Assembly: GCF_003236295.1 (NCBI RefSeq)
Contig: NZ_POTW01000013.1
Coordinates: forward strand, 1 to 64,000
Direction: 5' to 3'
From: Jiangella anatolica
GTDB lineage: Bacteria > Actinomycetota > Actinomycetes > Jiangellales > Jiangellaceae
Length of the DNA stretch: 64,000 nucleotides
Part shown: positions 2 through 15,202 of the stretch, piece after piece
Layout of the letters: the number at the start of each line of letters is the position of its first letter
Numbering within the stretch: position 1 is the first letter of the stretch
Program-made: the position numbers and the translations under genes
The notes under the pieces: generated by a model
What the model was told of the DNA's origin: nothing
Seen by the model: the letters and a program-made list of their open reading frames with translations, nothing else
Databases searched by the model: none

Positions 2-1747
2 ACCCACCCCGCGCCGCTGCGCGGCCTGCTGCCCTACCTGCTCGCCGACAGGCTCCGCTTCGCGCGCGTGGTGCTCTCCGGCATCCTGTTCGCCGGGCTC
101 GGCATCACCGCGGCGAGCCTCGGCGCCTGGCTGGCCGGCTCCGTGCTCGCCGGTGACTCCTGGTCCGGCCTGGCCGGCGTCTTCGGCTGGTTCGTCGCCG
201 CCTCGGCCGGCGCCGCGCTCGCGGCTTGGTGGCAGAGCGACGTCGGGCACGACTGGGCGTTCGCGCTGATGCGGGACCTGAGGGTGCGCGTCTACGACGG
301 CCTCGAGCGGGCGACGCCGCGGACGCTGCTCGGCCGTCGCACCGGCGACCTCACCAGCACCGCGATCGGCGACGTCAACGCCACCGAGCTGTTCTTCGCC
401 CACACCGCCGGCGACTACCTCGGCGCAGTGCTCGTGTCGGTGTCGTCCGTGGTTGTCATCGGCGTGGTCGACGTCCCGGTCGCGGTGGTCACCGCCGTCG
501 TGATGGCGCTGGTGGCGATCATCCCGTTCGCGCTGGCGAAGCGGGCGGGCGCGCAGGGCCGGCGGCTGCGGGAGCAGCTGGGCACGCTCGGTGCGGACAC
601 CTTGGACGGCATCCAGGGCCTGCGTGAGCTGACGGTGTTCGGCGCGACGCGCACCCACCGCGACCGGCTGCTGCGGCGGATGCGGTCGTTCCAGGCGGCG
701 GGGCGCAGCTACGCCGTTCGCTCGGCGGCCGAACAGGTCGCCACCGACCTGCTGCTGGCGCTCGGCGCCGCCGCGACCGTGCTGGTCGCCGTCGTCCGCT
801 TCCACGACGGGCACCTCGCACCGGCCTGGCTGCCGACGGTGGTCGTGCTGGCGGTGGCGGCGGTGGCGCCGATCGCCGTCGTGTCGGCGACCGCCCGCAC
901 CCTGGGCGACGTCCGGGCCGCCGCGGCCCGGGTGCTGACCATCGTCGGCTACCCCGACCAGGTCCCGGACACGGGTTCGGCGCCGGCGCCGCGGGGCGTG
1001 CCCGGCGTCCGCTTCGACGACGTGCGGTTCCGCTACGCCGACGACGGCCCCGAGGTGTTGCGCGGGCTGAGCTTCGAGATCCGGCCCGGCGAGACCGTCG
1101 CCCTGGTGGGCCGGTCCGGCGCGGGCAAGAGCACGTGCGCGAGCCTGCTGCTGCGATTCTGGGACGTGACCGGCGGCACGGTCGCGGTCGGCGGCACCGA
1201 CGTGCGCTCGTACGGCGTGGACACGCTGCGCCGGCTGGTCACGCTGGTGCCGCAGGACGCATACCTGTTCAACGTCTCCGTCCGGGAGAACATCCGGCTG
1301 GCCCGCCCGGACGCCACCGACGCCGACGTCGAGCGTGCCGCCCGGCAGGCCGCGGCGCACGAGTTCATCGCCCAACTGCCCGACGGCTACGACACGCCGT
1401 GCGGCGAGCACGGCGCACAGCTGTCCGGCGGGCAGCGGCAGCGGATCGCGATCGCTCGCGCGCTGGTCAAGGACGCGCCCGTCGTTGTGCTGGACGAGGC
1501 GGTGTCCAGCCTGGACGCGGAGAACGAGCGGATCGTGCAGCAGGCCGTGGCCGCCGCCAGCACGGGCCGCACCGTGCTCGCGATCGCCCACCGGCTCTCC
1601 ACGATCCGCGCCGCCGACCGGGTCGTCCTCCTCGACGGCGGGCGCGTGACCGACACCGGGACGCACGAGGAGCTGCTCGCCCGCAGCGCGGACTACCGCG
1701 ACCTCCTCGCCGCCCGCGACGGCGACGGGACGCGGATTGCGGACTAG
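2..1747 (+). CDS. ABC exporter, fused membrane and ATPase domains (5' end outside window)
   Basis: The frame is open to the left edge, so the true start lies upstream; a GTG at 68 is only an internal option, because sensible hydrophobic sequence precedes it. About 581 residues are visible. The first 300 or so form the membrane domain with several hydrophobic segments. The rest is the ATPase: Walker A GRSGAGKST near residue 370, signature LSGGQRQR near 473, Walker B VVVLDEA near 494 and the H-loop histidine of AIAHRLST near 527. This is the layout of a half-size exporter of the CydC/CydD or multidrug type; a partner half may lie upstream. The substrate cannot be told. It is convergent with the next gene and their stop codons overlap by 4 bp. 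Confidence 0.9.
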   Translation, partial: THPAPLRGLLPYLLADRLRFARVVLSGILFAGLGITAASLGAWLAGSVLAGDSWSGLAGVFGWFVAASAGAALAAWWQSDVGHDWAFALMRDLRVRVYDGLERATPRTLLGRRTGDLTSTAIGDVNATELFFAHTAGDYLGAVLVSVSSVVVIGVVDVPVAVVTAVVMALVAIIPFALAKRAGAQGRRLREQLGTLGADTLDGIQGLRELTVFGATRTHRDRLLRRMRSFQAAGRSYAVRSAAEQVATDLLLALGAAATVLVAVVRFHDGHLAPAWLPTVVVLAVAAVAPIAVVSATARTLGDVRAAAARVLTIVGYPDQVPDTGSAPAPRGVPGVRFDDVRFRYADDGPEVLRGLSFEIRPGETVALVGRSGAGKSTCASLLLRFWDVTGGTVAVGGTDVRSYGVDTLRRLVTLVPQDAYLFNVSVRENIRLARPDATDADVERAARQAAAHEFIAQLPDGYDTPCGEHGAQLSGGQRQRIAIARALVKDAPVVVLDEAVSSLDAENERIVQQAVAAASTGRTVLAIAHRLSTIRAADRVVLLDGGRVTDTGTHEELLARSADYRDLLAARDGDGTRIAD

Positions 1748-2724
1748 GTCCAGGCCGTGGCGTCCGGCCGGGCGCGCCCGCGCTCGACGGCGTCGCGGAG
1801 GTCGTGGAGCACCGCCTCGTACCACTGGGCCTCGGCCGGGTCGAACCGCCAGTTCTCAACCGGCTCGCGCATGGCGTCCTCCAGGCGACTCGCCTCGCCC
1901 AACGCGGTTTCGGCCGCGAGCTCGCGGCCGAGGCCGGCCAGGTCGGCCGACGCCGGCACCGAAGCCGGCGCCGCCGTCGTCCGCCGGTGCAGGAGCCAGT
2001 CCGCGAACCGCGTGGGCGCCAGCCACGCCTCGTCGCCGGGCAGGAGCGACCGCTCGCTCAGCACGGCGCCGAAGAGGCGTGCTCGCTCGTCGGTGACGAC
2101 CGTGCGGGGATCGTCGCGAGCGGACAGTTCGTCCCAGACGAGGGAGTCGAACCGCAGCCGCTCCGGACCGGCGATCTCGACGACGGCGTTCGCCGCCGGG
2201 TCCACCGCGATCCGGCCGAGCACGTCGGCGACGTCGTCGGCCGCGATGGGCTGGACGAGCACGGGAGCGAGCCGGGCGGCGTCCCCGTCGGTGGCGGCGT
2301 CGGCGATGCGCATGAGGAACTCGTAGAACTGCGTGGCCCGGACCAGGGTGAACGGGATCGGCGAGCGTGCGACGAGGTTCTCCTGCACCAGCTTGGCGCG
2401 GAAGTAGCCGAGGTCGGGCAGGCGGTCCGCTCCCACCACCGAGAGGGCGACGTGGTGTCTGACGCCCGCGCCGGCCTCCGCGTCGAGCAGGTGCCGTGTG
2501 GAGGTCTCGAAGAAGCGCAGGGCGATGTCGTCCTCGACGGACGGGGAGTCCGAGACGTCGACCACGACCGAGGTGCCGGTGAGCGCCTCGGACAGGCCCC
2601 GCCGGGTGAGCGTGTCGACTCCGGTCGTCGGCGACGCCGGGACGACCTCATGGCCGTGCCGGCGCAGCCCGCGGACGACCGCCGAGCCGATCAGGCCGGT
2701 GCCACCGACCACCACGATCTTCAT
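1744..2724 (-). CDS. NAD(P)-binding epimerase/NmrA-like oxidoreductase
   Basis: The 326-residue protein begins MKIVVVGGTGLIGS, a Rossmann nucleotide-binding loop (GGTGLIG, residues 7-13) of the atypical short-chain dehydrogenase (NmrA or epimerase) group. The ATG at 2724 overlaps the stop of the upstream hydrolase gene (ATGA), so the two are translationally coupled. It is a clear paralogue of the product of 8862-9620 over about 250 residues, and adds an extra C-terminal tail of about 75 residues rich in Ala, Glu and Arg that the paralogue lacks. Epimerase-like genes beside ECF41 sigma factors are a known association. The substrate is unknown. Confidence 0.85.
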   Translation of the reverse strand: MKIVVVGGTGLIGSAVVRGLRRHGHEVVPASPTTGVDTLTRRGLSEALTGTSVVVDVSDSPSVEDDIALRFFETSTRHLLDAEAGAGVRHHVALSVVGADRLPDLGYFRAKLVQENLVARSPIPFTLVRATQFYEFLMRIADAATDGDAARLAPVLVQPIAADDVADVLGRIAVDPAANAVVEIAGPERLRFDSLVWDELSARDDPRTVVTDERARLFGAVLSERSLLPGDEAWLAPTRFADWLLHRRTTAAPASVPASADLAGLGRELAAETALGEASRLEDAMREPVENWRFDPAEAQWYEAVLHDLRDAVERGRARPDATAWT

Positions 2725-3446
2725 GACGCCGCGACCGCGTCGACGGCCTCGAGGATCGTCGCCGCGACGGCGTCGGGCTGGGAGACGCTGAGGGCATGGG
2801 AGGCACCCGCCATCTCGCGGATGGTCTTGGCCCCGGCCCGCTCGGCCATGTAGCGGTGGAGAGCGACCGGGATGTTGAGGTCCTGGTCGCTGAAGACGAA
2901 CCACGACGGGATGGTGCGCCAGGCCGGCATGTCCGTCGGCAGTCCGGTGGTGAGGGCGAGCTCGGTGACCGGCCGCTGGGTCGCGCTCATGATCGCGGCC
3001 TGGGCGGGGGAGACGTCCGCGGCGAACTGGTGGTGGAAGACGTCGGGCCGGATGGTGAGCTCGTTGCCGCCAGTCGAGACCGGGTGACCCGCGATCGCCT
3101 CGCCGAGCGTGCTGCCGGGGAACTTGGTGGACAGTCCGAAGGCGTTCTCGCCGTGGTCCGGCGCGAAGGCGCAGACGTAGACGAGGGCGCTGACCGCTCG
3201 GTGCCCGGCGGCGGCCTCGGTGATCACCATGCCGCCGTAGGAGTGGCCGACGAGCACCACCGGCCCGTTGACGCCGTCGATCACGTCACGGACGTAGGTG
3301 GCGTCGCCGTGCAGGCTGCGCAGCGGGTTCGCGGCCGCGACGACGTCGAGCCCGCGCTCCTGCAGGCTCTCCACGACGCCGGCCCAGCTCGCGGACTCGG
3401 CGAACGCGCCGTGGACGAGGACGACGGTCACTCTCTTCCCGGTCAT
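2721..3446 (-). CDS. alpha/beta hydrolase (esterase-like)
   Basis: The 241-residue protein shows the alpha/beta hydrolase pattern: the HGAF strand-loop near residue 10, the nucleophile elbow GHSYGG near residue 72, a candidate acidic residue in FSDQD and a C-terminal histidine in GASHALS. No signal peptide is present, so it is cytoplasmic. The ATG at 3446 is chosen because an AAAGGGA ribosome site lies 6-8 bases upstream; an earlier start would add 12 residues not seen in relatives. It is the first gene of a two-gene operon with the epimerase and follows an ECF-type promoter at 3489-3516. It is related to the secreted hydrolase at 9938-10780. Confidence 0.85.
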   Translation of the reverse strand: MTGKRVTVVLVHGAFAESASWAGVVESLQERGLDVVAAANPLRSLHGDATYVRDVIDGVNGPVVLVGHSYGGMVITEAAAGHRAVSALVYVCAFAPDHGENAFGLSTKFPGSTLGEAIAGHPVSTGGNELTIRPDVFHHQFAADVSPAQAAIMSATQRPVTELALTTGLPTDMPAWRTIPSWFVFSDQDLNIPVALHRYMAERAGAKTIREMAGASHALSVSQPDAVAATILEAVDAVAAS

Positions 3447-3478: not shown

Positions 3479-4201
3479 TCACGGGATAGACCGGGTAGCC
3501 GGCGCCGGACGTGACAACCGGCGCCAGAGAGCCGGTCGGTCCACCAGGTCCGCGCCCAGGAGGTCTTCGATGTCGGCGAGGTTGGCGCTGCGGGCGGCGG
3601 CGCGGAACGCTCGCGCGATGGGCCGGAACCCCATGGGCCGGGCCCGCCGGCGCGGCCAGTCGTCCCTACGTGTGCGGGCCGGCCGGCCGGGGTCACCGAG
3701 AGCGATCGCGCCCGAGCGCAGGATCCTCCGCAGCCCGCCCGCGGGACAGGCGAACGCCTTGCGGGCGACGAAGACCAGCTGCGCGGCCGGCGTCAGTTGT
3801 GCGCGAAGGACGAGGACGGCGAGCTCGGCGGCCTGCGTGCGTTCGGTCTCGCTCGCGGAGCCGGCGCCGGGCTCGGCCGTACGGCCGGCGCGTTCACGGG
3901 CCGGGTGCTCGGTGCGTCGGTGGGCGGCCGCGATGATCTCGACGGCGATCCGGTCACCGGCGTTCGCGAACCGTCCCGGCAGGCCGGACCGCGTCGAGTC
4001 CGCGTCGACCGACCACCGCCGCCAGGCGTCGCGGATGATGCGCTCGCTGTCGGCGCGGGTGCCGTCGGCGAGCCGGCCGGCGATGGCGCTCAGGTGTGGC
4101 CACGCACTCGCCAGTACCGTCGTGGCCCCGGTGTCGATGCGCTGATCGAGCTGCGTCGGCCGCATCTGCGTCCCGCTCTCAGGACGGGTGGTCAGCTCCA
4201 T
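3479..4201 (-). CDS. degenerate ECF sigma factor-like protein (second of tandem pair)
   Basis: A protein of about 240 residues if the ATG at 4201 is used; this start overlaps the upstream sigma gene by 10 bp. It can be aligned by eye with that neighbour along its whole length: RIIRDAWRRW matches the region 2 motif DVVQDAWFRW, LTPAAQLVFVARKAF matches LTPHERATYLLREGF, and ARAFRAAARSANLADIEDLL matches LEAFLAAARTGDLAGLERLL. The region 4 helix-turn-helix is poorly kept, so DNA binding is doubtful. It looks like a duplicated and diverged copy that may modulate or titrate the first. A second possible start is the ATG at 4165. The C-terminal SnoaL-like domain usual in ECF41 is cut short. Confidence 0.6.
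   Translation of the reverse strand: MELTTRPESGTQMRPTQLDQRIDTGATTVLASAWPHLSAIAGRLADGTRADSERIIRDAWRRWSVDADSTRSGLPGRFANAGDRIAVEIIAAAHRRTEHPARERAGRTAEPGAGSASETERTQAAELAVLVLRAQLTPAAQLVFVARKAFACPAGGLRRILRSGAIALGDPGRPARTRRDDWPRRRARPMGFRPIARAFRAAARSANLADIEDLLGADLVDRPALWRRLSRPAPATRSIP
3489..3516 (-). promoter_or_regulatory. ECF41/SigJ-type promoter of the hydrolase-epimerase operon
   Basis: Read on the minus strand, TGTCACG (3516-3510) is followed after 16 bases by CGGTC (3493-3489). The start of transcription would be near 3482, giving a leader of about 36 bases to the ATG at 3446. The -35 matches the ECF41 consensus TGTCACA; the published ECF41 -10 is CGTC, here CGGTC. The site lies inside the 3' end of the sigma-like gene 3479-4201. 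Confidence 0.65.
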
Positions 4202-4824
4202 GGGTGCGGCTCCGTCCGTGCGAGCAGCCGCTCCAGGCCGGCGAGGTCGCCGGTCCGGGCGGCCGCGAGGAACGCCTCGAGCAGGCGGCGCCGCGCGGCC
4301 GCGTCCACGGGCACGCGGCGGTCCGACGCCAGCCGTTGCTGTGCTCGCCGCGCGAGCTGGCGGGTGTGCGCGACCTGCAGGCGAAGAACCTCGGCGATGC
4401 GCCGGTACGGGTAGCCGAACCCTTCGCGCAGCAGGTAGGTGGCGCGCTCGTGCGGCGTGAGCCGCTCCATGAGCAGCGTGATCGCCGCCTCGACGGCGTC
4501 GCGGTACACCGTCTGGGCCTCGGGCCCGGGACCGCCGTCGACCGGCTCGGCGAACCGGCTCGTCGCCGGGGCTTCGTGCCGCCGGCGGGCACACTGGGCG
4601 GCGTTGAGCGCGAGCCGGACGGTCGTGGTGGCGAGGAAGGCACGCGGGTCGTTGACCGCCGACCGGTCGGTGCGCCGCCACCGGAACCAGGCGTCCTGCA
4701 CGACGTCCTCGGCCTCTCCCTCGTCGTGGAGGATCCGATTGGCGATGGCCAGGAGCTGGGGCCGGGCCGTTGCGAAGATCGATGTGGCCTGGTCCAGCGG
4801 GGGGTCCAGCAGATCCGTGTTCAT
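4192..4824 (-). CDS. RNA polymerase sigma factor, ECF41-like, truncated C-terminus
   Basis: The 210-residue protein has sigma region 2 (DEGEAEDVVQDAWFRWRR, residues about 33-50) and region 4 (LTPHERATYLLREGFGYPYR onwards, about 115-160). It should direct RNA polymerase to a small set of promoters. The ATG at 4824 follows GGAGG by six bases. After region 4 it runs into LEAFLAAARTGDLAGLERLL, which resembles the start of the SnoaL-like domain fused to ECF41 sigma factors, and then stops, so that domain is essentially missing. The likely targets are four TGTCAC...CGGTC promoters within 5 kb. None is seen in front of this gene itself. A classical anti-sigma gene is absent, as is usual for ECF41. 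Confidence 0.8.
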   Translation of the reverse strand: MNTDLLDPPLDQATSIFATARPQLLAIANRILHDEGEAEDVVQDAWFRWRRTDRSAVNDPRAFLATTTVRLALNAAQCARRRHEAPATSRFAEPVDGGPGPEAQTVYRDAVEAAITLLMERLTPHERATYLLREGFGYPYRRIAEVLRLQVAHTRQLARRAQQRLASDRRVPVDAAARRRLLEAFLAAARTGDLAGLERLLARTEPHPWS

Positions 4825-4954
4825 GACCGCCTCCACGGTTCGACGGATCCATGCGCCGGCGGCGCCGGTGGCATCACCCTCGCGTTCGCAGGGCGACATC
4901 GCGCCGATGAGAGTCCGTGGCCAGGTCCGTGGTCGAGTCCGTGGCGACGCGGGC

Positions 4955-4982
4955 TGTCACAACGGAGGCCGCCTGTCCGGTC
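4955..4982 (+). promoter_or_regulatory. ECF41/SigJ-type promoter of the esterase gene
   Basis: TGTCACA (4955-4961) is followed after 16 bases by CGGTC (4978-4982). Transcription would start near 4989, giving a leader of about 25 bases to the ATG at 5014. The same pattern occurs at three other places in the first 10 kb. Confidence 0.65.
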
Positions 4983-5013
4983 CAGGTGACGTAGCCCTCA
5001 GACAGGAGCCCAG

Positions 5014-6007
5014 CATGAACACTCACGTTCTTGAGCCGGCGGCGCAGGCCCTCGCGGAGGCGACGGCGCGCCCGCCGTTCCTGTACGAGCTCGGCCCGGC
5101 AGGCGCCCGCAAGGTGCTCGACGACCTCCAGGCCGAGCCGATCGAAAAGCCCGACGTCGACGACCACTGGATCACTGTCCCCGCACAGGTCGGCGACGTG
5201 CGCGTGCGCATCGTCAGACATCGCGCGCTCGGCGCGCCGCTGCCCGTGATCCTGTACCTCCACGGCGGCGGCTGGATCCTCGGCAACGCCGGCACGCACG
5301 ACCGCCTGGTCCGCGAGCTGGCCGTCGGCGCGAACGCCGCCGTCGCGTTCGTCGAGTACGACCGCTCACCGGAGGCCCGCTACCCCGTGGCGATCGAGCA
5401 GGCGTACGCGACGGCCAGGTGGATCGTCCAGCACGGGAGGTCGCACGGCCTGGACGTGGATCGGCTCGCGGTCGCGGGGGACTCGGTCGGCGGCAACATG
5501 GCCGCGGCGCTGACGATCCTCGCCAAGCGGCGCGGAGACGTGACGTTCGTGCACCAGTCGTTGTACTACCCGGTGACCGACGCCGGGCAGGACACCGGCT
5601 CCTACCGCGAGTTCGCCGACGGCCCCTTCCTCACCGCGAAGGGCATGGCCTGGTTCTGGGACGCGTATCTGCCCGACGAGACCAAGCGCGGCGAGAGCAC
5701 CGTCTCGCCACTGCGGGCCGGCCTCGACGAGCTCGCCGGGCTGCCGGAGGCGTTCGTCGTCGTCGGCGAGAACGACGTGCTCCGCGACGAGGGCGAGGCG
5801 TACGCGCGCCGGCTGATCGAGGCGGGGGTGCGCACCACCACCGTCCGCTACAACGGCATCCTGCACGACTTCATGATGCTCGACCCCGTTCGGGAGACCG
5901 CCGCCGCGACCGCCGCGATCGAGCAGGCCGTGCACGTGCTCCGCAAGGCGTTCGAGGTCAGCCGGCCGGCCGCCGCAGGGCATCGCGCAGCTGACGCCGG
6001 CTGGTGA
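5014..6007 (+). CDS. HSL-family alpha/beta hydrolase (acetyl-esterase type)
   Basis: The 330-residue protein carries the oxyanion-hole motif HGGGW (residues about 84-88), the nucleophile motif GDSVGGN (about 156-162), a candidate acid in VVGENDVL and the histidine of GILHDFMML. These are the hallmarks of the hormone-sensitive-lipase family that hydrolyses short acyl esters. No signal peptide is seen. The ATG at 5014 follows CAGGAG by six bases. It is divergent from the sigma factor gene and has its own ECF-type promoter. Its last 50 bp overlap the 3' end of the LuxR-type gene on the other strand. Confidence 0.88.
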
Positions 6008-8753
6008 TGTCCAGCTTCGCGAACACCTTCCGCAGATGCCATTCCACCGTGTGGCGGCTGAGGTAGAGCTCCGCGCCGATCTCCGGATTGGTGCGGCCCT
6101 CGGCCGCCAGCCGGGCGATGTGCAGCTCCTGAGCGGTGAGCTCCTTGCGCGTCTCCGGTGCGCGCCTGCGCACCGTCTCGCCGGTGGCGGCCAGCTCCCG
6201 GCGGGCGCGTTCGGCGAAGGCCTGGACGCCCATGGCCGCCAGCGAGGTGTGCGCGGGCCGCAGGAACGACCGCGCGTCGTTGCGGCGGCCCGACCGGCGC
6301 AGCCACTCGCCGTGCAGCAGCTGCGCCCGCGCCAGGTCCACCCGGGCGCCGTCGCGCTCGAGCCGGTCGATCGCCTCGCGGTAGAGACCTTCGGCGCGGC
6401 GCTCGTCGAGCTGGGCTGCGCACCGTGCCGACACGCCGAGCGCCCAGTCCGTGCCGCTGGCCGCGGCCACCTCGGCGAGCCGCTCGGCCGCGGCGGACGC
6501 CGTCGCGGGATCGTCGCAGCGGATGGCCGCCTCGACCAGCTCGGCCAGCGCCCAGGTGCTCGGCTGGATCCCCGTGGGCGGCAGCGACACCCGTCCGTCG
6601 TGGTCGGCCGGCTCGAGCAGTGCGCGACAGTGGGCGAGCGCGGCCGGGTAGTCGCCGTTGCCGTTGCACAGCACCGCTTCGGCCCAGTGGGTGAGCGCCA
6701 CCACCATCTTCTCGCCGCGGGCGAGGGCGTCCGATCTCGCCACGGCGATCAGCGGGCCCGCATGGTCCTGGTCGCCGCGGAACGCCGCCAGGGCGATCGC
6801 GCCGTACGGATGGCTGGTGACGCCGGCGACCTCGGCCAGCGCCGTGGCCTCGTCGAGCAGCGCCGCGGCGGTGGTGAGATCGCCGGCGAAGACCTTGGTG
6901 TAGATGACGCTGTTCAGAGCGAGCTGCAGCGCGCTCAAGGCGCCGGACTCGCGGGCGAGCCCGATGTGGCGCTGGCACAGCGACGCCCACCGTCGCAGGT
7001 CCCACAGGTCGACGGCGATCTCGCTCGCGAACGCCAGCGACCGCAGCGCCTCGTCGACGGCGGTGTCGTCGGTGTCGAACGCGTTGACGACGCGCTGCAT
7101 CAGTGGCACCGCCGCGACGAAGCCGTCCTCCTGGAGCACGGCGATCGCCTGGAGGAACAGATCGCCCCGGCGCTCGCGGAGCGGCAGCGGCGCGGCCCGA
7201 GCCGCCTGTGCCACCTCGACGGCGGCCGGCTCGCCCAGCCGCAGCCCTGCGAACAGCGTGGCCTCGAGCGCGCTGACGTAGGTGTCGCGCGCCAGCTCCA
7301 GGTCGAGCGGCTCCAGCCGGCGGGCGGCGGCCAGCAGCAGGCGTACGGCCTCATGGCCACGGCTGGAGGCGAAGGCGATGTGGGCACGGAGCACCTCGGC
7401 GCGTGCACGCTGCAGCTCGGTCAGGCTCCGGTGATCGAGCAGCCCGAGCAGGCGCAGCGTGTCCTCGACGGCCCCGGCGTGGAGCATGGTCTGGGCGGCC
7501 TTGAGCTCGCGCTCGACCCGGCCGGCCTCGTCGGGGGTGAGCCGGGCCGCCCGTTCGAGCAGCGCGGCGCCGGCGGCCAGCCCGCCGTGGGCCAGGGCAC
7601 GGTCGGCGGACGCCTCCAGCTCCGCGGCCACGTCCTCGTCCGGGCCGGTGGCGGCGTGCGCGCGGTGCCAGGCCCGCCGGTCCGGGTCACGGTCGTGGTC
7701 GGTGACGTCGGCGAGCACACGGTGCGCCGCCCGGCGGTCGGGCGAGGCCGCGGACCGGTAGACGGCGGAGCGTACGAGGGGGTGCCGGAACCGCACGGTG
7801 TCCCACACCTCGATCAGTCCGGCGCCCTCGGCCGCGGCGGCGGAGTCCATGCCGATGCCGAGGCGCTCGGCCGCGTGCCGGAGCAGGCCGACGTCGCCCA
7901 ATGGCTCGGTCGCCGCGATCAGCAGCAGCCTGCGGGTGTCGTCGGGCAGGGTGTCCAGCCGGCGGCGGAAACCGTCCTCGATGCGGCTGGTCACCGTCCC
8001 GGCGGCCGGCGGTCCCGGGCCGAACGTCAGCTCGGCCGGCGACATCCACCGCGGCAGCTCCAGCAACGCCAGCGGGTTGCCGCGCGTCTCGGCCAGGATC
8101 CGGTCGCGCACGCGCGTGTCCAGCGGCGAGGTGACCACGGACTCCAGCACGGCCGCGGCGTCGGGCTCGCGCAGTCCGCGCACCGTCAGGCGCTGCAGGC
8201 CGGCCCAGGCGTGGTCGTCGTCGGTCGTGCGGGCGGCGAACACCATGGCGATCGCGTCCGCGGCCAGCCGGCGGGCGACGAACGCCAGCACCTCGGCCGA
8301 CGCCCGGTCCAGCCACTGCGCGTCGTCGATCAGGCAGATCAGGGGCCGGTCGTCGGCATGCTCCGACAGGAGCGTCAGGACGGCGAGCCCGACGAGGAAG
8401 CGGTCCGGCGGCCGGCCGCTCCGCAGCCCGAACGCCGTGCCCAGCGCCTCGGCCTGCGGCGGCGGCAGCCGGTCCAGCCCGCCGAACTCGTCCAGGAGTG
8501 GACGGCACAACTGATGGAGACCGGCGTGGGCCAGCTCGATCTCGGACTCGACACCGGCGGCTCGCAGCACCCGGCACTCCGACGCGGCGTCGACGAGATA
8601 GTCCAGCAGGGCGGTCTTGCCGATGCCGGCCTCGCCCTGCACCATGAGCACGCCGCTGTGACCCGAACGGGCCGCGCGCACCAGCTCGATGAGTTCCCGG
8701 CACTCCTGGTCGCGCCCTCGAAGCCATCGCGGCGGGAGCGACCCTGGTTCCAC
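5958..8753 (-). CDS. LuxR-family (LAL type) ATP-binding transcriptional regulator
   Basis: This 931-residue protein has the layout of large ATP-binding LuxR regulators (MalT-like). A P-loop ATPase lies at the N-terminus (GEAGIGKTALL near residues 40-50; Walker B ICLIDDAQWLD near 140), a long helical repeat region fills the middle, and a LuxR helix-turn-helix ends the protein (LTAQELHIARLAAEGRTNPE, ending with VEWHLRKVFAKL, residues about 868-925). The GTG start at 8753 is fixed by AGGAGG five bases upstream. The inducer is unknown. It lies between the two hydrolase/epimerase groups but is transcribed separately from them. Confidence 0.92.
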   Translation of the reverse strand: MEPGSLPPRWLRGRDQECRELIELVRAARSGHSGVLMVQGEAGIGKTALLDYLVDAASECRVLRAAGVESEIELAHAGLHQLCRPLLDEFGGLDRLPPPQAEALGTAFGLRSGRPPDRFLVGLAVLTLLSEHADDRPLICLIDDAQWLDRASAEVLAFVARRLAADAIAMVFAARTTDDDHAWAGLQRLTVRGLREPDAAAVLESVVTSPLDTRVRDRILAETRGNPLALLELPRWMSPAELTFGPGPPAAGTVTSRIEDGFRRRLDTLPDDTRRLLLIAATEPLGDVGLLRHAAERLGIGMDSAAAAEGAGLIEVWDTVRFRHPLVRSAVYRSAASPDRRAAHRVLADVTDHDRDPDRRAWHRAHAATGPDEDVAAELEASADRALAHGGLAAGAALLERAARLTPDEAGRVERELKAAQTMLHAGAVEDTLRLLGLLDHRSLTELQRARAEVLRAHIAFASSRGHEAVRLLLAAARRLEPLDLELARDTYVSALEATLFAGLRLGEPAAVEVAQAARAAPLPLRERRGDLFLQAIAVLQEDGFVAAVPLMQRVVNAFDTDDTAVDEALRSLAFASEIAVDLWDLRRWASLCQRHIGLARESGALSALQLALNSVIYTKVFAGDLTTAAALLDEATALAEVAGVTSHPYGAIALAAFRGDQDHAGPLIAVARSDALARGEKMVVALTHWAEAVLCNGNGDYPAALAHCRALLEPADHDGRVSLPPTGIQPSTWALAELVEAAIRCDDPATASAAAERLAEVAAASGTDWALGVSARCAAQLDERRAEGLYREAIDRLERDGARVDLARAQLLHGEWLRRSGRRNDARSFLRPAHTSLAAMGVQAFAERARRELAATGETVRRRAPETRKELTAQELHIARLAAEGRTNPEIGAELYLSRHTVEWHLRKVFAKLDITSRRQLRDALRRPAG

Positions 8754-8861
8754 GACGTCCTCCTGCGGCCGAAGAACCCGGCCGGAAGGGCGCGCGGGCC
8801 CGGCCGGAGTCGATGCCTCAGGATCGCACTCACGATCGCCCCGGGCAAGACCCCGGGCGCG

Positions 8862-9620
8862 TCACCGCGCGGGCGCCGTCGTCATGCCCACCCAGTCGGC
8901 GAACCGGGTCCCGCCGAGCGTTGCGCCGGCATCGGGGACGAGCGATCGCTCATCGAGCTCGGTGCCGAAGTAGCGGGCGTGCGGATCGGTGACCACCGTG
9001 CGGGGATCACTCCGCGCGGCCAGGCCGTCGCGGACGAAGTCGTCGAACCGGAACCGCTCCGGCCCGCCGATCTCGATCCGCCCGTTCAACGGCTCGCCCA
9101 CGGCCGTGCGGCCGACGACCCCGGCGGCGTCGGCGGCGGCGATCGGCTGGAACAGCACGTGCGGCACCCGCACCGTGGTCTCGACGGTGAAGCCGTCGAC
9201 GATGCTCTTCACGAACTCGAAGAACTGCGTGGAGCGCACGATCGAGTACGGGATCGGCCCGGCCTCGATGAGCGACTCCTGCGCCACCTTGGCCCGCAGA
9301 TAGCCGCTGTCGGGCAACTCGCCGGCGCCGACGATCGACAGCGCGACGTGGTGCCCCACCCGCGCCTCGGCCTCGGCGGCCAGCAGGTTCCGCGTCGACG
9401 TCTGGAAGAACCGCAGCACCGCGTCGTCCTCGAACGACGGTGAGTTGGACACGTCGACCACCACCGCCGCGCCGGTCAGCACCTCGGCCAACCCCTGTCC
9501 GGTGAGGGTGTCGACGCCGGTGTTCGGCGACGCGGGAACGGCCTCGTGGCCGTGCTCACGCAGGCGAGCGACGACGGTCGAGCCGATCAGCCCGCTGCCA
9601 CCGATGACGACGATCTTCAT
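8862..9620 (-). CDS. NAD(P)-binding epimerase/NmrA-like oxidoreductase (paralogue)
   Basis: The 252-residue protein begins MKIVVIGGSGLIGS, a Rossmann loop, and shares long identical stretches with the product of 1744-2724 (for example GVDTLTGQGLAEVLTG compared with GVDTLTRRGLSEALTG). It lacks the C-terminal tail of that paralogue. The ATG at 9620 follows GGAGG. An ECF-type promoter on the same strand lies at 9674-9701. Function beyond a reductase or epimerase of an unknown small molecule cannot be given. Confidence 0.85.
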   Translation of the reverse strand: MKIVVIGGSGLIGSTVVARLREHGHEAVPASPNTGVDTLTGQGLAEVLTGAAVVVDVSNSPSFEDDAVLRFFQTSTRNLLAAEAEARVGHHVALSIVGAGELPDSGYLRAKVAQESLIEAGPIPYSIVRSTQFFEFVKSIVDGFTVETTVRVPHVLFQPIAAADAAGVVGRTAVGEPLNGRIEIGGPERFRFDDFVRDGLAARSDPRTVVTDPHARYFGTELDERSLVPDAGATLGGTRFADWVGMTTAPAR

Positions 9621-9673
9621 CTCGCACCTCCAGTGCAGCCGGAGGGCGACGCTCGCCGTCCGGTCACTCCTCA

Positions 9674-9701
9674 GACCGGACGGCCCGCCCGAAGCGTGAC
9701 A
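9674..9701 (-). promoter_or_regulatory. ECF41/SigJ-type promoter of the epimerase gene
   Basis: On the minus strand TGTCACG (9701-9695) is followed after 16 bases by CGGTC (9678-9674). The leader to the ATG at 9620 would be about 47 bases. Confidence 0.65.
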
Positions 9702-9718
9702 GCGCGGGCCGCCTCGGC

Positions 9719-9745
9719 TGTCACATTCGGCACGCCTGTCCGGTC
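9719..9745 (+). promoter_or_regulatory. ECF41/SigJ-type promoter of the secreted hydrolase gene
   Basis: TGTCACA (9719-9725) is followed after 15 bases by CGGTC (9741-9745), one base shorter than the other three copies. The leader to the ATG at 9938 would be about 185 bases. Confidence 0.6.
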
Positions 9746-9937: not shown

Positions 9938-10780
9938 ATGTCCAACCACGAATCGGCGCCGCGCCGCCGGCGCGCGCTCCTGATCACGCCCGTTCTCGCC
10001 CTCGTCGCGATGCTCTCGCTCGGCGCCGGCGGGCATGCGGGCACCAACGTGCGGGCCGGCGGAGATCCCCGGCCGACGATCGTGCTCGTGCACGGCGACT
10101 GGGCCGACGGCTCGTCGTGGACCGGCGTGATCGAGCGGCTGCGGGACAGGGGCTTCACCGCCGTCGCTCCACCCAACCTGTTGCGCGGACCGGCCGCCGA
10201 CGCGGCGTATCTCGCCGGTTACCTCGAGACGATCCCGGGCCCGATCGTGCTCGTCGCGCACTCGTATGGAGGTTTCGTCACCACGAACGCCGCGGTGGGC
10301 AACACGAACGTCAAGGCGCTCGTCTACATCGACAGCTTCATGCCCGACGAGGGCGAGGTCCTCGGCGCGCTGGCGGCGAGCTCGGGTTCCTGCATCGACG
10401 AGAGCGCTCTCAACCCCGTGCCCTACGACGGCGGGGTCGAGCTGTACCTGCGCTGGGAGGCGAACCCGCCCTATCCGGGCTTCACTCGATGCTTCGCCAA
10501 CGGTGTCAGGCCGAGTGAGGCCGCCGTCCTCGCCGCCACCCAGCGACCCGCGGCGGCCGCCCAGTTCGCCGAGCCCTCCGGGCCAGCGGCGTGGAGGACG
10601 ATCCCGTCGTGGTCGCTCATCGGGACGTCGGACAAGGTGATCCCGCTCGCGCTGCAGGAGAAGATGTCCAGCCGGGCCGGGGCTCATGTGACCAGGGTCA
10701 GCGGCGGACACCTGACGCCCATCACGCATCCCGGCGACGTCACCCGGGTGATCCTCGCCGCGGCCGCCTCGACGACGTGA
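9938..10780 (+). CDS. secreted alpha/beta hydrolase
   Basis: The 280-residue protein has an N-terminal signal: Arg-rich RRRRALL, a hydrophobic stretch to about residue 30, then a small-residue cleavage zone. It therefore probably acts outside the membrane. The hydrolase core follows: VLVHGDW near residue 50, nucleophile elbow AHSYGG near 108, acid in GTSDK and histidine in SGGHLTPITHP. It is a paralogue of the cytoplasmic hydrolase at 2721-3446, with the same order of blocks including VLAATQRP and AWRTIPSW. A GGAGG site precedes the ATG. It ends four bases before the convergent beta-propeller gene. Confidence 0.85.
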   Translation: MSNHESAPRRRRALLITPVLALVAMLSLGAGGHAGTNVRAGGDPRPTIVLVHGDWADGSSWTGVIERLRDRGFTAVAPPNLLRGPAADAAYLAGYLETIPGPIVLVAHSYGGFVTTNAAVGNTNVKALVYIDSFMPDEGEVLGALAASSGSCIDESALNPVPYDGGVELYLRWEANPPYPGFTRCFANGVRPSEAAVLAATQRPAAAAQFAEPSGPAAWRTIPSWSLIGTSDKVIPLALQEKMSSRAGAHVTRVSGGHLTPITHPGDVTRVILAAAASTT

Positions 10781-12017: not shown

Positions 12018-12086
12018 CATGCGTCGACGACAGGCCCACGACGACCGCTCGTGACCACACGACGCGCGACCGACAGACGGGAACCC

Positions 12087-12977
12087 ATGACCTACGACAG
12101 CTCGGCGGCTCGCTCCACCTTCGCCCTCGACACCGACATCGGCACCGACGTCGACGACCTGCTCGCCCTCGCGATGGCGCTGGGCTCGCCCGAGCTGGAG
12201 GTCGCCGCGGTGACGACGGTGTACGGCGACGTGGAGCTGCGTGCCCGGATCGTCGCGAAGGTGTTCGCCGCGGCGGGGCGGGCGGCGCCGCCGATCGCGC
12301 CGGGCGAGCCGGAGACGCTGTCCGGGCGGCCGGTGTGGTGGCCGGGGCACGAGGGCTCGACCATCGCCGACCTCGGCGAGCAGGTCTATGCGGGCGGCCG
12401 GGACGCCGCCGGCGAGCTCGCGGCCAGTGCGACCGTCGTCGCGATCGGGCCGCTCACGAACGTCGCCGTCGCGCTGCGCCGGCCGGACCGCGAGACCGAG
12501 CGCGTCGTCATGATGGGCGGGGAGTTCCGGGCCGGCGTCGTCGAGCACAACGTCCGCTGCGACGTCACCGCGGCCGCCGAGGTCTTCGCGTCCGGCCTGG
12601 ACCTGCTCGCCGTCGGCCTGGACCAGACCCAGCGCGTCCGCCTCGGCCGGGCCGAGCTCGACGCCATCTCCGCGCGCGGGGCGTTCGGCGGGCTGATCGG
12701 CGCGGAGATGCGCCGCTTCTGGGCCTTCGCCGGCCAGGACCACAACGTGCCGCACGACCCCATCGCCGTGCTCACCCTCGCGCGGCCCGACCTCTTCGCG
12801 ACCGAGCGCGGCACGATCACGGTCGAGACCGACGGCGACGGCGCGGGCACGACCCGGTTCGCCTCCGACCCGGCGGGGCCGCACGAGGTGGTCGTCGACC
12901 TGGACGTGCCGCGCGTCACCGAGGAGATCGTGCACCGCATCCTCGCCGCGGCCCGGCCCGCCGCCACGACCGCCTGA
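12087..12977 (+). CDS. nucleoside hydrolase (IUNH family)
   Basis: The 296-residue protein has the calcium-binding aspartate cluster DTDIGTDVDD (residues 13-22) typical of inosine-uridine-preferring nucleoside hydrolases, which cut ribonucleosides into base and ribose. Further family marks are AIGPLTNVA near residue 120, VVMMGG near 140, and the conserved histidine and aspartate of HNVPHDPIAVL. The ATG at 12087 is preferred; a GTG at 12051 would add 12 residues. It opens the operon that continues with a sugar ABC transporter and a ribokinase, which fits uptake of ribosides and phosphorylation of the released ribose. Confidence 0.9.
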   Translation: MTYDSSAARSTFALDTDIGTDVDDLLALAMALGSPELEVAAVTTVYGDVELRARIVAKVFAAAGRAAPPIAPGEPETLSGRPVWWPGHEGSTIADLGEQVYAGGRDAAGELAASATVVAIGPLTNVAVALRRPDRETERVVMMGGEFRAGVVEHNVRCDVTAAAEVFASGLDLLAVGLDQTQRVRLGRAELDAISARGAFGGLIGAEMRRFWAFAGQDHNVPHDPIAVLTLARPDLFATERGTITVETDGDGAGTTRFASDPAGPHEVVVDLDVPRVTEEIVHRILAAARPAATTA

Positions 12978-13013
12978 CCTCCATCCCTGCATCGCTCGAA
13001 GAGGAGAAACGCC

Positions 13014-14315
13014 ATGGGAACGATCCGGATCCTCCCGTTCGCGGCGGCGATCGGCGCCGGCGTGCTGGCGCTGGCCGGCTGCGGCGGGTCATCGACGGAC
13101 GACTCGGGCGGCGGCGACGGCGGGGAGATCACCCTGACCTTCGCGAACGCCGACCCGGCCGAGACCTGGGCCAGGGTGATCGAGGGGTTCGAGGAGCTGC
13201 ACCCGGACATCACCGTCAAGCAGCTCAACATCCCCTACGCGCAGTACACGAGCACCATCAACCAGCGGATGGGCGCCGGCGGCGACGGGATCGACCTCAT
13301 GGTCGTCGACGCCGGCGGGGCCGCGCTGGACTGGAACAACCGGGGCTTCCTCGCCGACATCAGCGACCTGCGCGAGGACGCGATCGCCGCCGCCGTCAGC
13401 GAGAGCATGGTCACCGCGCGCGAGGTGGACGGGAAGCTGCTCGCGCTCGCGCCCTGGACCACCTCGCAGTTCCTCTACTACAACACCGACGTCCTCGCCG
13501 CGGCCGGTGTCGAGCCGCCGTCCGGCGATCCCGCCGCGCCGTGGACGTACGAGCAGCTGACCGAGGCGGCGCGGGCCGTGCAGAGCGCCGGCGCGGCCGA
13601 GTACCCGCTGCTGTTCGACCAGTGGGACACCTACTACCAGCTGCAGATGATGGGCGTTTCCGCCGGCGGCGGCGACGGCATCGACGCCGACGGCGTGGTG
13701 GACTTCTCCGGCGACGGCTGGCAGCGCGCCCTGACCTGGTACTACGGCCTCTTCGAGGACGGGCTCTCGCCGCGCGGCATCACCAACGACAAGAACGGCG
13801 CGCTGTTCCAGGAGGGCAAGGCCGCCTTCATCATCTCCGGCCCGTGGGGCGTGAGCGTGGCCAACGCCGGCGGCATCAACTACGGCGTCGCGCCGGCGCC
13901 CTACTTCGAGGGCGGTGAGCCGGCGACGTCCACGGATTCGTGGGCGGTGGGCATCTCGTCGAAGTCCGAGCACCTCGAGGCCGCCAAGGAGTTCCTGCGC
14001 TACATGACGATCGACCCGACCGGCAACGCCCAGTCGGCCGAGGTGGCCGGCATCACGCCCACGAACACGGAGGCCTTCGCGACCTACGTCGAGGGCGTCG
14101 AGGCGTCGGCGGGCGCGGCGACGGCCGGGTTCGGGGCGATCCTGCAGTACCAGCTGGAGAACAACGCCGTGCACCGCCCGGCCGTCGTCGGCTACAGCGT
14201 GTTCGAGCCGGGCGCCGGGCAGTTGTTCTCCGACATCCGCAACGGCGCCGATCCGGCCGAGCGCGCCGCGCAGGCCGACGAGGAGATCGGCGCGCAGATC
14301 GAGCGCCTGCGGTGA
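13014..14315 (+). CDS. sugar ABC transporter substrate-binding lipoprotein
   Basis: The 433-residue protein starts with a lipoprotein signal whose lipobox LAGC places the lipidated cysteine at residue 23. The rest has the form of a family-1 extracellular solute-binding protein (for example DINPYAQYTSTINQRM-like block NIPYAQYTSTINQRM near residue 77 and YNTDVLAAAGV near 156). It binds its sugar or nucleoside outside the membrane and hands it to the two permeases downstream. A GAGGAGAAA ribosome site precedes the ATG. Its stop overlaps the start of the first permease. No ATPase gene is present in the operon, so a shared MsiK-type ATPase encoded elsewhere is likely. Confidence 0.88.
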   Translation: MGTIRILPFAAAIGAGVLALAGCGGSSTDDSGGGDGGEITLTFANADPAETWARVIEGFEELHPDITVKQLNIPYAQYTSTINQRMGAGGDGIDLMVVDAGGAALDWNNRGFLADISDLREDAIAAAVSESMVTAREVDGKLLALAPWTTSQFLYYNTDVLAAAGVEPPSGDPAAPWTYEQLTEAARAVQSAGAAEYPLLFDQWDTYYQLQMMGVSAGGGDGIDADGVVDFSGDGWQRALTWYYGLFEDGLSPRGITNDKNGALFQEGKAAFIISGPWGVSVANAGGINYGVAPAPYFEGGEPATSTDSWAVGISSKSEHLEAAKEFLRYMTIDPTGNAQSAEVAGITPTNTEAFATYVEGVEASAGAATAGFGAILQYQLENNAVHRPAVVGYSVFEPGAGQLFSDIRNGADPAERAAQADEEIGAQIERLR

Positions 14316-15202
14316 TGTACCGGGCGACGGCGACGCGGCGAAAGGCGCGCTCCACCCTCGTCGCCGTCGCCATGCTCAGCCCCGCGCTCATCGCGCTGGT
14401 GCTGATGCGGGTGGTGCCGATGATCAGCGCGGTGAGCCAGAGCTTCCGGCACGTCTCGCTGGCGACCGGTGCGTCGGAGTTCGACGGACTGGCGAACTAC
14501 ACGTACCTGCTCACCGACCCCGGGTTCCACTCCGTGCTGGTGGTCACGCTGGTCTTCAACCTCGTCCTCAACCCCGCGATCGTGGTGCTGTCGACGGCGC
14601 TGGCGCTGATCACGGCGCAGCGGCTGCCGCTGGTCGGCCTCTGGCGCTCGATGATCTTCGTCCCGGCCGCCGTGCCGGGTGCGGTGGTCGCGCTCATCTG
14701 GAGCACGGCGCTGCAGCCGGACGGCCTGGTCAACGCGCTGCTGGCGGTCGTGGGCCTGCCGCCGCAGCCGTTCCTGACCTCGGCGAGCCAAGCGGCGTTC
14801 TCGATCGGCATCATGGTCACCTGGGGCGCCCTCGGCTACTGGATGATCTTCGTGATCGCGGGGCTGAAGGACATCCCCGACGCCCTGTACGAGGCGGCGG
14901 CGATCGACGGCGCGGGGTGGTGGCGCCGGCTGTTCTCGATCACGCTCCCGCTGCTCAAGCGGCCGATGGCGTTCGTCCTGATCGCATGCACGGTCGGGTC
15001 GTTCCTGCTGTTCGCGCCCGTGCAGATCCTGACGAAGGGCGGCCCGAACGGGTCGACGAACCTGATCATGTTCGACATCTACAACCGGACCTACCTGCTC
15101 GGCGACGTGGGCGTCGGCCAGGCGGAGGTCGTCATCCTCATGCTGCTGCTCGCCGTCATCGTGGCCGTCCAGTTCCGGCTGCTCAGGGAGGATCGGTCAT
15201 GA
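14315..15202 (+). CDS. sugar ABC transporter permease, MalF-like
   Basis: The 295-residue membrane protein has about six hydrophobic segments. The cytoplasmic loop EAAAIDGAGWWRRLFSITLPLL (first 20 residues from about 191) contains the EAA motif that contacts the ATPase. The ATG at 14315 overlaps the stop of the binding-protein gene; a GTG one codon earlier is equally possible. It pairs with the next permease to form the channel. Confidence 0.9.
   Translation: MYRATATRRKARSTLVAVAMLSPALIALVLMRVVPMISAVSQSFRHVSLATGASEFDGLANYTYLLTDPGFHSVLVVTLVFNLVLNPAIVVLSTALALITAQRLPLVGLWRSMIFVPAAVPGAVVALIWSTALQPDGLVNALLAVVGLPPQPFLTSASQAAFSIGIMVTWGALGYWMIFVIAGLKDIPDALYEAAAIDGAGWWRRLFSITLPLLKRPMAFVLIACTVGSFLLFAPVQILTKGGPNGSTNLIMFDIYNRTYLLGDVGVGQAEVVILMLLLAVIVAVQFRLLREDRS

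Follow-up and report, generated by a model that had tools for sequence, protein, structure and literature searches.

In the published work on the extracytoplasmic function (ECF) sigma factors of the ECF41 family, the promoter consensus was given as TGTCACA-N16-CGTC with a spacer of 16 ± 1 (PMC3426412). According to the same work, the activity rose about 20- and 120-fold when ECF41 was artificially shortened to 204 and 206 amino acids (aa), respectively, and removal of the whole extension abolished it (PMC3426412). In the 2012 study, no inducing condition was known for ECF41. The SnoaL end motif was described as contacting the WLPEP linker motif (PMC7730460). Here, we analyzed a 64,000-nucleotide (nt) stretch of Jiangella anatolica DNA (contig NZ_POTW01000013.1, positions 1 to 64,000; hereafter, the window) that contains four promoter-like sites around the gene for an ECF41-derived sigma factor, sigma-1. 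Comparison of sequences identified, in addition to the sites, a -10 element linked to the sigma clade, the loss of the SnoaL domain and of the full linker motif, and an association of the sigma gene with a regulator gene and a block of direct repeats.

Like Ecf41Bli, Ecf41Rsp, and SigJ, sigma-1 has a core of sigma regions 2 and 4, which is closest to the SigX4 and SigJ models and to the structure 5xe7, and the window has the TGTCAC -35 element and epimerase-type neighbors. Unlike them, sigma-1 has neither SnoaL nor the full WLPEP linker motif, and its locus has CGGTC instead of CGTC, a regulator of the large ATP-binding LuxR (LAL) type as a neighbor, and several predicted target operons. The truncated proteins Ecf41Bli(204) and Ecf41Rsp(206), which were cut at a place comparable to the natural loss seen here, are 37 residues longer than the extension-free versions (167 and 169), and sigma-1 keeps 47 residues past its Pfam match to region 4. 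In contrast to these constructs, sigma-1 is natural, conserved, and also devoid of the full docking motif. The regulator shares an AAA ATPase and a C-terminal LuxR helix-turn-helix (HTH) with MalT and TpdR. Direct repeats are the binding sites of MalT, and a promoter under the LAL regulator TpdR lost its function when one of its two direct repeats carried a deletion (PMC6099782). The difference is that the proposed target here is a sigma factor gene with a predicted operator. SigG1-RsfG of ECF56 likewise involves an actinomycete SnoaL-type ECF family and a separate control protein; however, SigG1 keeps its SnoaL domain, and its inhibitor is an antagonist protein (PMC7730460). In the literature covered, a SnoaL-less ECF41 lineage, its link to a LAL regulator, and a CGGTC -10 element were not found described; the Casas-Pastor 2021 classification, the SigJ structure paper, and Wu 2019 lay outside this coverage.

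As judged from the sequence comparisons, the four sites are probably promoters of a sigma-1 regulon, with the gene of the brake-less sigma-1 being switched on by the LAL regulator via CCACGGAC repeats. In this scheme, sigma-1, or a sigma factor with its specificity, would transcribe a local regulon from these sites; sigma-1 is an ECF41 derivative that has lost the C-terminal SnoaL brake and the full docking linker motif. Control would have shifted from the sigma protein to the transcription of the sigma gene: LAL, an ATP-dependent LuxR-type sensor, would sense a signal, bind the CCACGGAC direct repeats, and activate the sigma-1 gene, and the uninhibited sigma factor would use TGTCAC-N17/18-CGGTC promoters to transcribe hydrolase and epimerase genes. 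In the window, sigma-1 would also drive epi2-LAL, which would close a positive loop. We infer the recognition of the sites by sigma-1, the binding of LAL to the repeats, and the direction of control; for the binding of direct repeats, MalT and TpdR provide the precedents. The features concerned are collected in Table 1.

Table 1. Genes, predicted promoters, and candidate regulatory elements of the locus (window coordinates).
Feature	Coordinates	Strand	Remarks
epi1, NAD(P)-binding epimerase-like	1747..2724	-	Pfam; downstream of hydA; predicted target
hydA, alpha/beta hydrolase (Abhydrolase_6)	2724..3446	-	Pfam; predicted target
sigma-2, degenerate tandem copy of sigma-1	3482..4201	-	Weak SigX4/SigJ match; start overlaps sigma-1 stop
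Predicted ECF41-type promoter of hydA, TGTCAC-N18-GGTC	3489..3516	-	43 nt to ATG
sigma-1, ECF41-derived sigma factor, 210 aa	4195..4824	-	Pfam, NCBIfam, tree; no SnoaL domain
Conserved block preceding SnoaL-less sigma genes: repeats followed by CTCTCATCGGCGCG and GAGGGTG	4851..4945	-	Profile search
CCACGGAC direct repeats, three copies with a period of 12, preceding sigma-1	4913..4944	-	Candidate LAL operator; sole such triple in 64 kb
Predicted promoter of abh3	4955..4982	+	33 nt to ATG; divergent from sigma-1
abh3, Abhydrolase_3 esterase/lipase-like	5015..6004	+	Pfam; predicted target
LAL-type regulator, 931 aa	5961..8753	-	AAA_16 at 11-165, GerE (LuxR HTH) at 871-922
epi2, NAD(P)-binding epimerase-like	8865..9620	-	Pfam; predicted target
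Predicted promoter of epi2	9674..9701	-	54 nt to ATG; LAL gene downstream on same strand
Predicted promoter of hyd2	9719..9745	+	193 nt to ATG, longer than the other three
hyd2, alpha/beta hydrolase, secreted-looking	9938..10777	+	Pfam; hydrophobic N-terminus; predicted target

The original prediction had placed four sites of the pattern TGTCAC(A/G)-N15/16-CGGTC around the sigma genes, each oriented toward a hydrolase or epimerase gene. All four were recovered with exactly the predicted coordinates and strands, packed into 6.3 kb, and were the only matches in the 64 kb; 100 dinucleotide shuffles contained 0.12 matches on average, and none contained four. The genes downstream were also as described, with 33–193 nt between site and ATG. 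Each site carried the TGTCAC -35 of ECF41 promoters, followed by A in two cases and by G in two, and the published spacing was retained, with GGTC N16-N17 beyond TGTCAC[AG] in an unchanged register. The ECF41 -10 element CGTC was replaced by GGTC, and three of the four sites had one extra spacer base (offset 18). The hydA site begins inside the sigma-2 gene, at its 3′ end, and the counterpart of the site in genome G014 occupies the same position (L050 10273, +). A site also preceded epi2 in loci L050, L149, and L051, and a site followed by a hyd2 homolog was found in G014 (L050 8865, -) and in G006 (L102). The location of epi2 and the LAL gene on one strand behind the epi2 site suggests that LAL may itself belong to the regulon; epi2, LAL, and sigma were consecutive on one strand in L149 and L051.

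The genome-wide scan proposed along with the original prediction yielded ten matches in the 7.0-Mb genome, compared with one for the reversed pattern, and seven of the ten lay outside genes as assigned by a simple codon-usage gene caller. Six lay at loci with relatives of sigma-1: the four window sites, C199:21225, located 56 nt before an epimerase-like gene that is followed by a full-length ECF41 paralog, and C190:50980, which precedes a hydrolase gene by 83 nt in the vicinity of another SnoaL-less sigma. Two of the remaining four were in genes, one preceded a methyltransferase-like gene, and one preceded a 231-aa open reading frame (ORF). In a comparison set of 22 genomes of the order, 104 matches were counted versus 46 for the reversed pattern (60 versus 17 in the nine genomes with sigma-1-like genes and 44 versus 29 in the other 13). 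A TGTCAC-N17/18-GGTC site was found within 6 kb of 16 of the 17 sigma-1-like genes in the order, sigma-1 counted; L162 had none. Genome G014, with a sigma ortholog 89% identical to sigma-1, had four sites within about 10 kb; three sites were located near the orthologous sigma in G011, two in G015, and three in G006, and G008 had three sites close to sigma and one about 12 kb off. This recurrence near orthologous sigma genes agrees with the predicted local ECF41-type regulon. Among 35 sites in 19 chosen loci, 28 were intergenic, and 23 were 27–57 nt before a called start codon. The genes behind the sites of relatives encoded hydrolases, epimerases, and glyoxalase-like proteins, and a cupin at one full-length relative; one distant site in G006 was 52 nt upstream of a hydrolase 45% identical to hyd2. 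In L156:13046-14917 of G008, the sigma frame continues without a stop into that of Abhydrolase_3, and a CGGTC site lies between the two. A sigma-abh3 fusion is not claimed; by homology, the site is about 37 nt before the hydrolase start.

The -10 element was assessed by tallying, for each TGTCAC no more than 3 kb from an ECF41-like sigma gene, all 4-mers that follow it; CACTGT served as the control. For the 17 sigma-1-type sigmas of the order, GGTC stood at offset 17 after 18 of 31 TGTCAC (control 0 of 7), and offset 18 gave four more GGTC of 31. At offset 17, the 47 relatives outside the order had GGTC in 39, TGTC in 17, and CGTC in 4 of 137 cases (control 0, 0, and 1 of 44), and CTGTC was used by some of them. 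In the 64 looser ECF41 paralogs, the counts were 17 TGTC, 16 CGTC, and 2 GGTC of 160 (control 1 each of 74). The looser paralogs thus favored CGTC or TGTC at the same offset, which indicates that CGGTC is a clade-linked -10 element. By these counts, the known CGTC and the CGGTC occupy the same promoter position and the variant tracks the sigma clade, which supports the proposal of a variant -10. No specificity residues are claimed: the mutual information between the -10 element and sigma columns was confounded by phylogeny, its strongest columns fell in several regions, and the alignment included two mis-extracted rows.

The original prediction also described a pair of ECF41-like sigma factors. 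The first, sigma-1, is indeed ECF41-derived; however, it was found without SnoaL and without the full WLPEP linker motif, and the second did not hold up as an ECF41-like sigma, since sigma-2 is a degenerate tandem copy with no Pfam match at an E value of 0.01. The sigma-1 start was set at 4824, which is M26 of a longer ORF; a plausible ribosome-binding site lies upstream and is conserved with G014. Only Sigma70_r2 and r4 were detected by Pfam, and the best NCBIfam models, SigX4 and SigJ, both scored under their cut-offs. The C-terminal SnoaL-like extension of ECF41 (about 100 aa) was absent: sigma-1 ends 7 residues beyond residue 228 of the longer ORF, whereas full-length relatives extend about 90–120. 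A ratio of nonsynonymous to synonymous substitution rates (dN/dS) of 0.24 indicates that sigma-1 is under purifying selection. The AlphaFold model had a mean predicted local distance difference test score (pLDDT) of 79 (14 sequences), and the sigma-1 core was most like the SigJ structure 5xe7 across SigJ residues 9-200. A search of plasmids with sigma-1 (tblastn) gave only matches below 60% identity.

In a 73-row tree, 14 SnoaL-less sigmas formed one clade nested among full-length relatives (bootstrap 100, Shimodaira-Hasegawa-like approximate likelihood ratio test 99) and spanned four family groups (f1, f17, f19, and f26). Counts of 13 given for the clade omit L190_11472 and counts of 14 include it; sigma-2 and its G014 copy were excluded from the sigma counts. 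The full WLPEP motif was present in none of the 14 clade members, compared with 46 of 48 full-length relatives. Two further SnoaL-less sigmas, in L221 and at L225:5120-5791, were outside the clade and had no block match; they may represent independent losses or gene damage.

The neighboring regulator has the architecture of the LAL family, a large protein with an N-terminal AAA ATPase and a C-terminal LuxR HTH. Counting a match of at least 130 bits no more than 6 kb from the sigma gene, LAL was found near 13 of the 14 clade sigmas, near two of the 48 full-length relatives, and near none of 65 looser paralogs; both full-length relatives with a LAL neighbor sit at the locus of a clade member. 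Upstream of the SnoaL-less sigma genes lies a conserved block in which the CCACGGAC repeats recur with a period of 11–12 across loci. A profile of this block was built from six loci of the order and run over 116 loci (1.64 Mb). Ahead of any other place, it ranked its own six and then L210 (E 4e-11) and L202, L189, L194, L222, and L192 (E 0.013 to 0.73), these further six all being upstream of clade sigmas; the L190 block followed at E 1.0, after one match elsewhere in L202. Together, LAL and the direct-repeat block upstream of sigma-1, neither of which figured in the original prediction, suggest how the regulon might be controlled.

A held-out test covered 400 genomes of two other families, from which the 60 loci with the highest scores were taken and 59 were used; L168 was the same place as L189 and was dropped. 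Four of 11 linker-lost and 6 of 44 full-length loci in this set were places already seen. The block was present upstream of 10 of the 11 linker-lost sigmas, including six of the seven not seen before, of one of four short-tailed sigmas that keep the linker, and of none of the 44 full-length sigmas. In one of the linker-lost rows, L262/L289, the tail is 117 residues long and, by eye, looks unrelated to SnoaL. The recurrence of LAL was scored in 20 held-out loci with longer flanks, including 9 of the 44 full-length ones; it was seen in two of four short-tailed linker-keeping loci and in none of the nine full-length loci. At L295:6333-7265 (G446), a short-tailed sigma has WLPEP kept, the repeat block, and an adjacent LAL, and is a possible intermediate.

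Several observations weigh against the proposed scheme. In the held-out set, LAL accompanied only four of seven linker-lost loci; one of the three misses was cut by a contig end. In L051, L189, and L192, the LAL match was divided between two frames. The repeat pattern, found at 7 of 13 clade loci and at none of 116 others, was written after the repeats had been seen. Over the 22 genomes, the bare repeat pair had 10 matches versus 8 for the reversed pair, with 5 of the 10 located at the sigma genes considered here; since this is near chance, the claim rests on the longer block. Several block matches outside the order were weak (E 0.01 to 1), and the profile missed the clade member L034 of the own genome at its sigma gene. 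The linker was also partly kept in some clade members, as WLPE in four and ELPEP in one, so its decay is partial in places. With regard to the sites, three of the ten own-genome matches were inside genes, and the offset-18 CACTGT control near the 17 sigmas gave one GGTC of 7. Within about 1.9 kb of 13 clade members, a GGTC site was found in eight cases, TGTC in one, and neither in four, and several loci outside the order had only CGTCAC (-35) or CTGTC variants. The full-length paralog at C199 has the same type of site, and sigma-1 is therefore not the sole candidate reader. As a separate observation, the epi2 match at L050:3097-3977 (G014) was split, which, as with the split LAL genes, may reflect gene damage or assembly errors.

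It is conceivable, though improbable, that the SnoaL-less sigma reads the promoters while LAL and the repeats serve another purpose, sigma-1 being controlled by sigma-2, proteolysis, or another factor. Besides the near-chance frequency of the repeat pair, the absence of LAL at one of 14 clade and three of seven held-out loci would fit such control, as would the position of sigma-2, which overlaps the sigma-1 stop and retains an open frame in two species. However, the whole block is directly upstream of the sigma gene and tracks the SnoaL and linker loss in new loci, and within the order no sigma-2 orthologs were found beyond the window genome and G014; a third match, in G015, overlaps that genome's own sigma-1 ortholog. 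A search of the genome contigs with sigma-2 found no relative. Its dN/dS of 0.54 between the window and G014, versus 0.13–0.31 for five neighbors, points to a relaxed but still open duplicate; the mean pLDDT of 41 (11 sequences) fits degeneracy and is otherwise uninformative. We regard as doubtful the idea that in the window species a co-expressed sigma-2 is an added modulator, for example an RNA polymerase decoy or a sigma-1 partner, within an ECF41 lineage of actinomycetes that discarded its own sensor and became the output of a LAL sensor via a direct-repeat operator.

Another unlikely explanation is that the promoters are real and are read mainly by full-length ECF41 relatives elsewhere in the genome, sigma-1 being minor or inactive. 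The C199 paralog has its CGGTC site before its own epimerase-sigma operon, and ten full-length relatives in the order group together with good support, nine of them with a GGTC-type site. On the other hand, the sites cluster with the neighbor genes around sigma-1 orthologs, and sigma-1 is under purifying selection; some cross-talk may nonetheless occur. That the sites are bound by a repressor or an activator rather than being promoters is very improbable: a conserved sequence by itself does not demonstrate a promoter, but the -35 element and spacing equal those of the published ECF41 promoter, the orientation is consistent, and in the 19 chosen loci 23 of 35 sites are 27–57 nt from a called start codon. 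Chance matches in GC-rich DNA, to which the 46 reversed-pattern matches over 22 genomes and the three matches in genes might point, can already be discarded for the four sites taken together, given their number within 6.3 kb and their conserved positions in relatives, and are extremely improbable.

If the signal does arrive via a separate LAL protein, this would allow the sensor to be studied in isolation, and the sigma-1 lineage would represent a natural counterpart of the hyperactive ECF41 truncation. The wider clade offers a natural switch of -10 specificity, from CGTC/TGTC to GGTC at a fixed -35 and spacing, which may help to map the residues involved in recognition and to build orthogonal promoters.

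Apart from the sigmas, the local products by Pfam comprised two Abhydrolase_6 proteins, one Abhydrolase_3 protein, two epimerase-like proteins, and one AAA_16/GerE regulator. ECF41 genes have a carboxymuconolactone decarboxylase, an oxidoreductase, or an epimerase gene as a neighbor, and the last kind is represented here by epi1 and epi2. Beside the regulon, at 12051-15202 of the window, a nucleoside-hydrolase-like ORF and a sugar-type ATP-binding cassette (ABC) transporter set were recognized by eye, with no promoter match. Elsewhere in the genome, the match before the methyltransferase-like gene is 129 nt from it and, by eye, on the opposite strand to a groES-like ORF. The match at G000 C199:4462-4488 (-) is intergenic, 143 nt before the 231-aa ORF, which has no Pfam match; matches ending in the same CATGATCGGTC were also present in G011 and G015. 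Near-identical unlinked matches, TGTCACAATCC...CATCGGTC or ...CACCGGTC, occurred in L089 and L101 (G012 and G005) and also in G013 and G014, and the L089 match was 32 nt before a membrane-bound-looking ORF of 489 aa.

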